This document shows positions 54,447-57,919 of a stretch of 64,000 nt of DNA, one piece after another (within the stretch, counting starts at the first letter, position 1; each line of letters begins with the position of its first letter). The notes under the pieces are model-generated. The model was not told the DNA's origin. It made no database searches and saw nothing but the letters and a program-made list of their open reading frames with translations. Position numbers and translations under genes: made by a program. This stretch comes from Bacteroidota bacterium (lineage in GTDB: Bacteria; Bacteroidota; Bacteroidia; Flavobacteriales_D; Crocinitomicaceae), in assembly GCA_016192075.1 (NCBI GenBank), contig JACPUU010000007.1, positions 124,001 through 188,000 of the forward strand, read 5' to 3'.

Positions 54447-56072
54447 TCAGAGCGCGTTATGCTCTTTAAAAATTTTATTGAGCCATTTCAACATACCAAA
54501 CATCAGTATGCCGGCGGCCAGCAGTAAAACAAAGTTTACATAGAAAAAATTGGCTTTGTCTTCATACCCGTCCCACAAACTGCTCAAAACACCTGAGAGT
54601 TTGTTACCAATTGATGTGGCCAGAAACCAGCCCCCCATCATTAATGCTGTAAGGCGCGGTGGACTTAATTTGCTCACCAGTGACAAACCCATTGGGCTTA
54701 GAAATAATTCACCAATGGTAATTACCGCATACGATGAAATAAACCACCAGGCTGATGATTTAACTCCACCATTCTGACTCGCATATACACCGGCAACCAT
54801 CACCAGGCATGATAAAGCTGAAATTACCAGTCCAAATGCAATTTTAGCCGGGGTGGTAGGTTCTTTTCCACGGCGTTTTAAGAATGCAAAAAAGGCTACA
54901 ATCAGCGGTGTAAAAGCCACTACCCAAAATGGATTGACGGACTGAAACAGATTTGTGTTAAAGGCATAGACCGCTCCACCTTCTTGTGGTTTGTCTTTTT
55001 CAGGCAGATTTTTGAAATACGACGGATACGCAAATTCTTTTAGTTTTTTGTCTTTTACCCGAAACTGGTTATCCATAATAACTACCGAATCTTTCTGATA
55101 CGAGATGGTATCAACCAGGCTCAGTGCCTCCATGGTTGGCAGCATTTCGGTGGGTATTTCACGATCAGTATACCGGTCGGCCCAGGTATTGAGTGTTGAA
55201 CCATTTTGTTTAAACACGGCCCAAAAAGCAATTACTACCGCAAAAATGGCAAGCATAGCGGCAATTGGTCTTTTCTCTTCAGCAGGAGATTTTTTCAAAA
55301 GCCGGCCATAAAAGAAAATGATGGGAATGCACCCAAACAAAAAGGCATCGGTTGTTTTGCTGCCAACAAGTGGTGTTGGAAGCAGCAACGCCAGCAAACC
55401 AAAAGCAACAGACGGTATCAGAATGTATCCGAAAATCTGGAGCAAAGGCATGTCATTGGCTGATTTTGGCTTGATGACATCTACGTGTTTGTAATGCCGT
55501 GTACCAATCCAGAAAATGGTAATACCGATAAACATACCAATTCCTGCTGCGAAAAAAGCAGCTCCCCAACCCATCAGGTTATACAATGCCGCCCCAAAGA
55601 AATTACAAACGAAAGCACCAATGTTGATACCCATGTAAAAGATATTGTACCCTTCATCTTTGAGTGATTTGTATTCGGGATCATTGTATAGATTCCCCAG
55701 AAGTGTTGAAATATTGGGTTTAAAAAAGCCGTTTCCAAGAATTACCAGGAACATGGAAATGTAAAGCATATTCAGGTCATGAATAGACATCATGCAATAG
55801 CCGAACCCCATCAGTAAACCGCCGATTGTAATGGACCGGCGATATCCCAGAACCCGGTCGGCCAGCAAGCCGCCAATAAAAGGAGTCAGGAAAACAAAGG
55901 CAATAAACGTTCCGTACAGGTCGGATGCTTCCGCTTCCGTCATATTAAATCCGTTCACGGTATCTTTCAGGTAAAGCGTAAAGATTCCGATCATCAGGTA
56001 ATACCCGAAACGTTCCCACATTTCAGAAAAAAACAGATACGGTAATCCTTTTGGATGTTTAGACCTGGCCAT
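54447..56072 (-). CDS. Peptide MFS transporter (POT/PTR family, DtpT-like)
   Basis: A 541-residue proton-dependent oligopeptide transporter with about 14 membrane helices. Conserved pieces: ERFGYYLMIGIFTLYL (the ExxERFxYY region, about 16-30), GGLLADRVLGYRRSI after helix 2, and NIFYMGINIGAFVCN (PTR2 signature FYxxINxG). An insert of soluble sequence at about 290-370 separates the halves. It imports di- and tripeptides in symport with protons. Transcribed together with miaE downstream, probably from a promoter near 56075-56110. Confidence 0.93.
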   Translation of the reverse strand: MARSKHPKGLPYLFFSEMWERFGYYLMIGIFTLYLKDTVNGFNMTEAEASDLYGTFIAFVFLTPFIGGLLADRVLGYRRSITIGGLLMGFGYCMMSIHDLNMLYISMFLVILGNGFFKPNISTLLGNLYNDPEYKSLKDEGYNIFYMGINIGAFVCNFFGAALYNLMGWGAAFFAAGIGMFIGITIFWIGTRHYKHVDVIKPKSANDMPLLQIFGYILIPSVAFGLLALLLPTPLVGSKTTDAFLFGCIPIIFFYGRLLKKSPAEEKRPIAAMLAIFAVVIAFWAVFKQNGSTLNTWADRYTDREIPTEMLPTMEALSLVDTISYQKDSVVIMDNQFRVKDKKLKEFAYPSYFKNLPEKDKPQEGGAVYAFNTNLFQSVNPFWVVAFTPLIVAFFAFLKRRGKEPTTPAKIAFGLVISALSCLVMVAGVYASQNGGVKSSAWWFISSYAVITIGELFLSPMGLSLVSKLSPPRLTALMMGGWFLATSIGNKLSGVLSSLWDGYEDKANFFYVNFVLLLAAGILMFGMLKWLNKIFKEHNAL

Positions 56073-56121
56073 AGTTTATGAGTTTGATTGCTCTCAAATA
56101 TAACTATTAATACAGGACAAT

Positions 56122-56149
56122 AAAAAAGCCCCGGTTAAAATACCGGGGC
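56122..56149 (-). terminator. Terminator of the mini-lipoprotein at 56196
   Basis: GCCCCGGT (56128-56135) and ACCGGGGC (56142-56149) make an 8-bp stem with a 6-nt loop, followed on the minus strand by TTTTTT (56122-56127 on plus are six A). It ends the mini-lipoprotein gene at 56196 before the POT promoter. Confidence 0.85.
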
Positions 56150-56195
56150 GTGCTTTTTCAATGATGCTGAAACTTATTTTTTAAAGCTATTCAGT

Positions 56196-56336
56196 TCAGT
56201 TAATCTTTTTTTGCGTGGTTTTGTATTTGGTGTAATCCGCTTTGTTGTATGCGTCACAATTGTGCCCGCCACCGCCGCAGCTTGTAATGGCAACAAATAA
56301 TACACCTGTTACAACTCCTAAAATGATCTTTTTCAT
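56196..56336 (-). CDS. Mini-lipoprotein with CDAY-KADYTKY motif, copy 1
   Basis: A 46-residue protein, below usual length cut-offs. The first 20 residues are a lipoprotein signal (basic MKK, hydrophobic core, lipobox AITSC with Cys20). The mature peptide begins GGGGHNCDAYNKADYTKYKT. It has a second Cys (27) and is Lys/Tyr-rich. A paralogue at 56542 keeps the motif CDAY-x-KADYTKY. It has its own terminator, consistent with an independent short transcript. Function unknown; the pattern of a Gly spacer, Cys, and a charged motif suggests an outer-membrane-anchored binding or structural peptide (inference). Confidence 0.8.
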   Translation of the reverse strand: MKKIILGVVTGVLFVAITSCGGGGHNCDAYNKADYTKYKTTQKKIN

Positions 56337-56496
56337 AATTGCCTTTTTTTGGTTTTTTAGTCTTTGCTTTTACTGGTTTTCTTACACAAAACAGGATGAC
56401 AGTAAACATCCGGTTTTAAGCAATTTACGAAAAAAAAGCGCACAGGTCAAGTACCCTGCTCAAAAAAACCGGAGCATTCAAACCACCTGCAAACAA

Positions 56497-56524
56497 AAAA
56501 GCCCCGGAAGAACCGGGGCTTTTG
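56497..56524. terminator. Terminator of the mini-lipoprotein at 56542 (bidirectional)
   Basis: AGCCCCGG (56500-56507) and CCGGGGCT (56513-56520) with AAAA before and TTTT after form a stem with a 5-nt loop. It lies just after the stop of the leftward gene at 56542. Confidence 0.85.
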
Positions 56525-56541
56525 AATAATGTGATCAATTA

Positions 56542-56706
56542 TTAGTTATTTTTTTTGCCAATTGTCAGCTCAATCTTTTTTGATTGTTCAGCATGGTATT
56601 TTGTATAATCTGCTTTTCTGTATGCATCACATGTGTGACCACCTCCACAACTTGTCATTCCTAATACGAATGCTCCTACGATTCCTGTTAAAACAATTTT
56701 TTTCAT
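56542..56706 (-). CDS. Mini-lipoprotein with CDAY-KADYTKY motif, copy 2
   Basis: A 54-residue paralogue of the gene at 56196. Signal 1-19 with lipobox GMTSC (Cys20), then GGGHTCDAYRKADYTKYHA, followed by a longer basic C-terminus ending GKKNN. Both copies share the Gly spacer, the second Cys, and CDAY-(N/R)-KADYTKY. The gene has its own terminator, so each copy is a separate transcription unit. It suggests recent tandem duplication. Function unknown. Promoter not identified with confidence. Confidence 0.8.
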   Translation of the reverse strand: MKKIVLTGIVGAFVLGMTSCGGGHTCDAYRKADYTKYHAEQSKKIELTIGKKNN

Positions 56707-56965
56707 TTTTTAAGGTTAATTGGTTTTTACTTTTGTTAGGCTACTTGCTTACCTCCAGTAGTCAGGGGTCAGATTTAGAACAACTCTTCGCCTGACGGAA
56801 ACGAATTTAAAGAAAAAATATGGTACAACAAGTATCCGGACCGAAAAAGGCCATTAAGGCTATCTTAATAACCATTCGTCAATCTACCTGAAACCCTTAC
56901 CAACAGAGGCTTCATTGCATTTGAAAAAAATGTTAATAAGTTGTACTGTCCAGAAACACATGCGC

Positions 56966-57919
56966 TTACAAATGATAGTGTTCGCTTATTTTATCCAGCA
57001 ATACCTTGCTCAGTTTATAATACGATTCATGTGTCCAGCCGCCTACATGCGGTGAAAGCAGCACTTTATCTGATTTCAGAATATACTCAAAAGCCTCAGG
57101 CCGCCCACCGGGGATATCAAACATATTTTCAAAAGAAGACTTCTCGTATTCCAGCACATCCAGGCAGGCGCCGGCTATTTTTCCGGCTTCAATTCCACGC
57201 ATAACCGCTGCTGTGTCTACAATTTTGCCGCGGGACAGGTTAATCAGGTAAAATGATTTTGAAAACCGGTTGATCCGTTCATCATTAACAAGCCCAATGG
57301 TCTCTGTGTTTTGTGGAATGTGAAGGCTCAAAACATCTGCCTCACGGCAAATAGTTTCCCAATCTGTTTCTTCAACCTGGCCATTGCCAAAACCGGTTTT
57401 GTATTTATCGTACACCAGCACCCGCACATCAAACCCGCGCAGCTTCTTTGCAAAAGCCTCACCATTATTGCCATACCCGATAATACCTACGGTTTTTCCA
57501 TCCAGTTCTGTTCCTTTATTTTCTTCACGCCGCCAGATACCATTTCGAACCTCTGCATCACACCGGTTCAGGTGATTCAACAGCGACAGCAGCATACCCA
57601 GCGCATGTTCGGCAACTGCGTTTCGATTGCCCTCGGGTGCATTAAACAATTGAATGCCGCGTTGATTGCAGTACGGCACCTCAATATTCTCCATTCCGGC
57701 ACCTGAACGGGCAATAAATTCAAGTGCAGTAGCTTTGGAGAGAAAATCAGCATTCATTGGAAAGCGGCTGCGAATAACAATACCCTGGTAGTGCTGAATA
57801 ATTTTCTCAACGTCCTCCTTGGGTTGGGTTGTCAAATCATCACAAATCCAACCGGCTTTTTCAAGTCCTTGTTGCAAAACCTCATGCACCGTATCTAAAA
57901 AAGCTACCTTTTTAGTCAT
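56966..57919 (-). CDS. D-isomer 2-hydroxyacid dehydrogenase
   Basis: A 317-residue NAD-dependent dehydrogenase of the SerA/PGDH-like family. NAD-binding GIIGYGNNGEAFAKKL (about 138-153), with the acidic residue ending the next strand in VLVYDKY; catalytic Arg in LINLSRGKIVD, Glu in CLDVLEYE and His in SPHVGGWTHES are all there. The ATG at 57919 is preferred over 57952 because it overlaps the upstream stop by only 8 nt and fits the family start KVAFLDTVHEVL. No ACT domain, so not the regulated serine-pathway type. Substrate unknown (phosphoglycerate, glyoxylate or other). Confidence 0.88.
   Translation of the reverse strand: MTKKVAFLDTVHEVLQQGLEKAGWICDDLTTQPKEDVEKIIQHYQGIVIRSRFPMNADFLSKATALEFIARSGAGMENIEVPYCNQRGIQLFNAPEGNRNAVAEHALGMLLSLLNHLNRCDAEVRNGIWRREENKGTELDGKTVGIIGYGNNGEAFAKKLRGFDVRVLVYDKYKTGFGNGQVEETDWETICREADVLSLHIPQNTETIGLVNDERINRFSKSFYLINLSRGKIVDTAAVMRGIEAGKIAGACLDVLEYEKSSFENMFDIPGGRPEAFEYILKSDKVLLSPHVGGWTHESYYKLSKVLLDKISEHYHL

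Follow-up and report, generated by a model that had tools for sequence, protein, structure and literature searches.

A clade-specific tandem array of mini-lipoprotein genes within a class-wide set sharing a C-x-A-Y core

The two genes and their transcription signals

The window, i.e. the whole 64,000-nt stretch of DNA that was analysed, contains two small open reading frames in tandem on the minus strand. The upstream copy (gene 2, 54 aa, 56542..56706) encodes a signal peptide followed by CGGGHTCDAYRKADYTKY and a tail, and the downstream copy (gene 1, 46 aa, 56196..56336) encodes a signal peptide followed by CGGGGHNCDAYNKADYTKY and a short tail. A gene for a D-2-hydroxyacid dehydrogenase (Pfam PF02826 and PF00389; 56966..57952, minus strand) lies upstream of the pair. 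The lipoboxes read ITSC and MTSC, and N-terminal basic residues, a hydrophobic core and a lipobox ending in Cys were recognized by eye in both proteins and in their aligned relatives. Each protein continues with a Gly-rich spacer, a second Cys and the sequence CDAY-(N/R)-KADYTKY. Over 44 residues the two proteins share 59% identity (E 1e-17), with conservation centred on the motif; the signal peptides have 8 of 19 residues in common (counted by eye) and the tails are divergent. A preliminary description of the locus had claimed tandem genes of 46 and 54 codons, with these elements in each copy and with signals and tails that diverge around a conserved motif, and our analysis bears out each of these points.

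The same description had proposed that genes of this kind are missed by annotation, and the lipoprotein genes indeed carried no name in any library searched. Neither window protein matched a Pfam or NCBIfam model above the cut-off, and PHROG returned weak matches to families without an assigned function. An Rfam scan of positions 55900-57100 identified no RNA element, and a PDB search identified no solved relative (best E 0.07). AlphaFold placed a helix at residues 27-53 in the tail of the gene 2 protein with low confidence (mean pLDDT 69, pTM 0.26); the two models obtained (pTM 0.23 and 0.26) indicated neither a fold nor a partner. When a degenerate DNA version of the motif was searched across the organism's own genome, just the two window sites matched, and none of four other CDAY-coding DNA matches fell within a small lipoprotein.

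Each gene is followed by an intrinsic terminator on the same strand, consisting of an 11-bp stem and a T-run for gene 2 (56497..56523) and an 8-bp stem and a T-run for gene 1 (56128..56149). One stem arm plus the T-run is identical at 15 of 16 nt between the two. Six terminator-like sites were found between 55600 and 57300, compared to 1.7 expected from shuffled sequences. Across the window's clade (see below), a terminator lies within 90 nt of 20 of the 22 distinct genes, window pair included, compared to 1.6 expected from mononucleotide shuffles, which preserve base composition alone.

Promoter-like sites were placed by eye 5' of both copies. The gene 2 site (56802..56831, minus strand) consists of TTG (56829-56831), 19 nt and TAAATTCG (56802-56809), and the gene 1 site (56420..56450, minus strand), a weaker match, consists of TTG (56448-56450), 20 nt and TAAATTGC (56420-56427). 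The most enriched element 5' of the clade genes was TAnnTTCG, present in 14 of 22 compared to 0.7 in shuffles that preserve base composition alone, although this pattern was chosen post hoc out of many enumerated. TAnnTTTG, the usual Bacteroidota promoter element, was fixed beforehand; measured against the same type of shuffle it was not enriched in the clade (2/22, 2.0 expected) and was enriched in relatives outside it (78/140, 12.6 expected), where TTG most often stands 19 nt before it. The preliminary description had assigned each copy its own strong terminator and independent control. A hairpin and T-run do lie 3' of each gene, and with its promoter-like site, weaker for the downstream copy, each copy resembles a transcription unit of its own.

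Conservation, the dN/dS ratios given below and the terminators rule out that these are non-coding or chance reading frames. We conclude that both are real, conserved and separately terminated mini-lipoprotein genes.

The window's clade and the wider family

A search with a single protein matched 18 of 200 genomes of the same family, own genome included. The window's clade accounts for 14 of these (again including its own), and the other four matches belong to other lineages and were weak (E about 4e-4 to 9e-4). Clade genomes carry one to three copies in a row, with two or three in 6 of the 14 and three in two of these. The 13 named loci come mostly from Crocinitomix or other Crocinitomicaceae; a cultured carrier is Crocinitomix catalasitica ATCC 23190 (L040). 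The position of the array is conserved, as a 2-hydroxyacid dehydrogenase gene adjoins it in 12 of 14 genomes and clpB in 11 of 14. In the window, the place usually taken by clpB, downstream of the array, is occupied by a gene for a PTR2/POT-family peptide transporter (54447-56072). A tree of the 22 clade copies gave good support to 1 of 19 branches. A second copy with a GGQ insert holds the same array position in three genomes (G004, G025 and G041). The second copy at another locus (L016, 86 aa) has a greatly lengthened Lys/Glu-rich tail, indicating that tails are free to change while the core stays. Absence of the motif from related genomes had been named in advance as a result that would speak against the preliminary description; instead, the motif was found in related genomes.

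We then consider the wider distribution. A profile built from the clade matched 186 of 399 genomes of the order. Among 50 order loci outside the clade that were found by profile, 49 encode a lipobox Cys followed by C-x-A-Y and one (L095) does not; a further locus, L078, was dropped when its sequence was not extracted. At E 0.003 a broader profile found matches in 232 of 345 class genomes, covering 119 of 178 genera, which is an upper figure because the profiles include the signal peptide and give false matches. At E 1e-5 or better the class count was 153 of 345, a set of loci that were not all read individually. The motif was present in all 30 of the best class-wide loci and in 39 of 40 class regions that we chose, a set that overlaps with the 30. 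A profile of 30 class-wide sequences (A4), free of clade rows, recovered gene 2 in the window's genome at E 1.7e-6 and gene 1 at E 3.0e-5; this recovery serves as a consistency check, since clade rows had been part of the profile through which these sequences were first identified.

The clade-free profile also showed the limit of such searches: it matched 76 of 296 genomes of the phylum, and 30 of the loci, which were read, comprised 17 with CxAY (one being the window's), two with CPTY and 11 that matched through the signal peptide only. The motif was absent from the three loci read from outside the class (L239, L241 and L247) and from four loci of family f6 (L240, L242, L248 and L249). The narrow clade profile matched 7 of 395 phylum genomes, with CxAY in two of the seven loci beyond the window pair. 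Profiles restricted to the mature part of three lineages matched one another pairwise with 93-96% probability (E 3e-7 to 1e-8), although these profiles are very short and start at the lipobox Cys by construction. Such matches are suggestive of shared ancestry, the alternative being convergence on a short motif. Profile A1 comprised 21 of 24 proteins and profile A4 comprised 30 of 49; two spurious reading frames, in L188 and L211, had been removed. A third mini-lipoprotein lineage exists within the window's family, of CDAYS or CxAYG-Y type and in several cases ending in ENGTI or similar, close to an accA-like gene that was named by eye (L063, L065, L072, L081, L083, L107 and L111).

Both window proteins contain the lipobox Cys, short spacer and C-x-A-[YF] by which we define the CxAY family. 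From these data we conclude that the window pair is a tandem array specific to its clade and belongs to a set of mini-lipoproteins that spans the class, the core of which is the lipobox Cys and a nearby C-x-A-Y. What was first seen as a local tandem pair is thereby widened to a family distributed across the class, for which a locus recurs. The preliminary reading of the pair is thus supported in part, its observation being confirmed. The motif is conserved as proposed, but the full CDAY-x-KADYTKY and the Gly-rich spacer are confined to the window's clade, the wider core being C-x(usually 4-7)-C-x-A-Y. Similarly, the duplication is real but is not needed for function, as two copies were present in 10 of the 40 class regions, one copy in 29 and none in one.

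The family members scanned beyond the window pair gave weak matches alone in Pfam and NCBIfam. Two NCBIfam models of short lipoproteins were considered as possible homes for the family. The PG1828 family lipoprotein (NF050142) is also short, and its model scored E 0.01 or lower with 11 of 30 class-wide members (best 1.5e-5) and E 0.1 or lower with 10 of 27 members. However, the mature part of PG1828-type proteins at eight loci (L119-L125 and L128) is repetitive, without a second Cys or CxAY, and membership was rejected: gene 2 of the window scored 12.8 bits compared to a cut-off of 50 and gene 1 was unlisted at E up to 1. Matches to the LptM model were weak, with E 0.1 or lower for 10 of the 27 members (best 0.0027) and 0.006 for one of the 30. 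Alignment with E. coli LptM was limited to the signal peptide and Cys region (25% probability), and LptM membership was rejected when the mature profile A6 gave an hhalign probability of 0.1% with this protein. A search of open-licence papers identified no description of the family, the motif itself returning unrelated titles alone, and the accessible part of PMC12045153 contains no description of it. The family and its locus therefore appear to be undescribed, whereas small outer-membrane lipoproteins as a kind are already known.

The mature peptide and the recurrent locus

For a description of the mature peptide we used 163 distinct sequences, one of 164 genes having been dropped for want of a mature start. 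These were collected with the pattern C-x-A-[YF], which is therefore constant among them by construction; the fair figure for its conservation is the 49 of 50 profile-found loci. The mature part is 16-67 residues long, with a median of 26. The spacer between the two Cys residues is 4-7 residues in 155 of 163 sequences and includes a His in 107, while a further Cys follows in just two. A-Y is most often preceded by D (79 sequences) or P (67 sequences). Mean net charge is about +1. The consensus of the 30 class-wide sequences reads CKSHExCPAYGK, and the exceptions to the motif are CEAF (L133 and L135), CDAF (G022) and CPTY. All invariant columns other than the Met/Lys start belong to the mature part, and the sequence outside the core is variable. 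This arrangement suggests that an envelope signal can be conserved even when reduced to a few residues beside the lipid.

Of 66 close ungapped pairs drawn from the wider family, 59 were unsaturated, with a median dN/dS of 0.11 and values below 1 in 58 of 59. The pairs are not independent, as sequences recur among them; the clade contributed two (0.04 and 0.21), and the window genes, whose genus was represented by its own genome alone, contributed none. We conclude that mini-lipoprotein genes are under purifying selection across the wider family. An envelope peptide under such selection that was matched in 153 (E 1e-5) to 232 (E 0.003) of 345 sampled class genomes, and that is nameless in the libraries searched, represents a gap in knowledge of the outer membrane of this class.

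The signal for surface exposure of Bacteroidota lipoproteins (LES) is an acidic pair soon after the Cys, of the C-X-K-(D/E)2-X, SDDFE or SDDDD type, in the available text of PMC5080379. None of the 163 mature sequences contains such an acidic signal, taken as at least two D/E residues at +2 to +6, from which we infer that the peptides probably face the periplasm; surface exposure is disfavoured. Their location in the outer membrane is presumed.

Outside the clade many of the genes have a recurrent setting: they are divergent from ung and from a gene for an Omp85-family protein with a POTRA domain, are sometimes directly 5' of a gene for BrxC, a monothiol bacilliredoxin (named via PF11009 on one representative), and have osmC and lipA nearby. 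The neighbour counts that follow come from 40 class regions and 35 order regions that we chose and are thus not a random sample, and each neighbour cluster was named from one representative. Among the 40 class regions, ung was present in 30, always upstream and on the opposite strand, lipA in 26 and an OsmC-like gene in 24. The Omp85-family gene was present in 16 class regions, and in 13 of these ung stands between it and the mini-lipoprotein gene. BrxC lies 3' on the same strand in 11 of the 40, with gaps of -4 to 17 bp in 10 and of 136 bp in one. Homology links the Omp85 proteins of the order and class sets (35 of 35, E 1e-10). When 61 loci were compared, the Omp85-family gene accompanied 35 of 48 non-clade loci and none of 13 clade loci, and direct inspection of six non-clade genomes placed the mini-lipoprotein beside the Omp85 gene in all six, two of which were the loci reading CEAF. 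This recurrent place near genes for Omp85-family proteins, bacilliredoxin and ung opens the way to a direct test of function.

Among 53 genomes in which both genes were located, Omp85 lies within 3 kb of the mini-lipoprotein, always divergently, in 23 and is not close in 30. For BrxC the corresponding figure, within 1 kb and on the same strand, was 13 of 27. Co-occurrence of BrxC was no higher than background (27 of 55 genomes with a located mini-lipoprotein compared to 60 of 109 in the sample). Omp85 was present in 53 of the same 55 genomes compared to 90 of 109, a difference that we do not use as evidence because it is confounded by relatedness and because the 55 are the better matches. The closest Omp85 homologue in each of the 14 clade genomes is only distantly related (28-32% identity), and its 1.5-kb flanks contain no CxAY gene; in the window's own genome BrxC lies on another contig. 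The window's clade has left the ung/Omp85 locus. As the clade's gene persists without these neighbours, any inference drawn from the neighbours is weakened.

Possible functions

The mechanism that we consider most likely, if only tentatively, is that the peptide docks on a barrel as an assembly or thiol accessory. From established knowledge, Lsp would cleave the signal peptide and the Cys would be acylated; a peptide with a median of 26 residues would then likely reach the outer membrane and remain on its periplasmic side. The C-x-A-Y motif, only a few residues from the lipid, could dock on a beta-barrel of the outer membrane, at its periplasmic face or lateral gate; the leading candidate for this partner is the Omp85-family protein whose gene, in much of the class, is divergent from that of the mini-lipoprotein. 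The peptide would thereby act as a small assembly or thiol-maturation accessory of the barrel, as LptM does for LptD. Extra copies in the clade may increase the dose or provide variants for different clients, each with its promoter and terminator. The partial text of PMC10567701 describes LptM (YifL) of E. coli as a tiny lipoprotein of the outer membrane that binds a barrel there and helps this barrel to mature; the comparison is one of analogy, with no link of the mini-lipoproteins to LptD shown here. The accessory lipoproteins of the Bacteroidota BAM complex provide a second precedent, in that they serve an Omp85-family protein, whereas the mini-lipoprotein is linked to an Omp85 gene by genomic position alone and in part of the class (PMC12611786, in the part of the text available, which names no such mini-lipoprotein). 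A broader form of the docking mechanism, which we hold loosely and regard as doubtful, is that these roughly 26-residue peptides serve an Omp85-type translocase throughout the class as a conserved accessory, with the acylated Cys as anchor and C-x-A-Y docking at the barrel or its thiols, and that the gene in the window's clade relocated and was amplified into arrays of independently transcribed copies. The family would have escaped annotation because its genes have only about 40 codons. Several points argue against docking on the barrel: the window's clade is unlinked to Omp85 at all 13 loci compared and its genomes carry a remote homologue, the two genes are not close in 30 of 53 genomes, the models show no fold or partner, and the mature part does not align with LptM. 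Divergent genes also need not have a common function, and ung stands between them in 13 of 16 regions.

We rate a thiol or redox role about equally with docking, i.e. as a possibility that is less than probable. The second Cys would form an intermolecular disulfide, giving a dimer or a heterodimer of paralogues, or would buffer oxidants or metal at the membrane, as part of a thiol-stress module with BrxC and OsmC. The same-strand BrxC gene 3' in 11 class regions and within 1 kb in 13 of 27 genomes, the OsmC-like gene in 24 class regions, and the frequent His between two Cys residues that a third seldom follows (2 of 163) are all consistent with this role. However, BrxC is a cytoplasmic protein and the lipoprotein is not cytoplasmic, the presence of BrxC was no greater than its rate in the sample, the window's genome carries BrxC on a separate contig, and the promoter type seen here resembles the standard one. 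A structural role comes next and seems somewhat unlikely. As a bulk lipoprotein, a short acylated peptide could fill or stiffen the outer membrane's inner leaflet, and C-x-A-Y would then serve not for binding but for sorting, second acylation or retention; this would suit the terminator and promoter-like site of each copy, the tandem amplification, the slight positive charge, the helical tail in the low-confidence models and the variable sequence outside the core. On the other side, a mature part with a median of 26 and a minimum of 16 residues seems too short for the cell wall, unlike Braun's lipoprotein, and the sequences read have no common C-terminal Lys.

Two further proposals are much less probable. 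Entericidins EcnA and EcnB are small lipoproteins encoded by two tandem genes, and the side-by-side paralogues of the window could likewise be a toxin and antidote pair; weak matches were obtained to the entericidin B model (E 0.033) and to the entericidin A model (E 0.081), each for 1 of 27 members. We regard this as very unlikely: many relatives are single copy (29 of the 40 class regions), two clade genomes have three copies, and both window copies contain the same motif. Membership in the entericidin family was rejected, as the window proteins were unlisted at E up to 1 and the best match in the family was the E 0.033 above. That the released signal peptide acts as a pheromone, or in some other role, is the least probable proposal, with hardly any weight in our view. 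The precursors are very short and gave weak matches to the NprX and AimP models, but the invariant columns lie in the mature part, Met/Lys start aside, and the named recurrent neighbours include no pheromone receptor.

Other proteins recur at these loci. An unnamed protein of about 250 aa, by eye an outer-membrane barrel (cluster c2, L181-L220, e.g. L182:4620-5402), is encoded in 24 of the 40 class regions; Pfam gave no match for its representative. Another protein, of about 160 aa and resembling a lipoprotein, with no Pfam match above the cut-off and a weak match to CpXC, is encoded together with the Omp85 gene and an ABC-transporter ATPase, which we take to be LptB, in nine loci (L064, L068, L071, L073, L075, L087, L088, L106 and L110).
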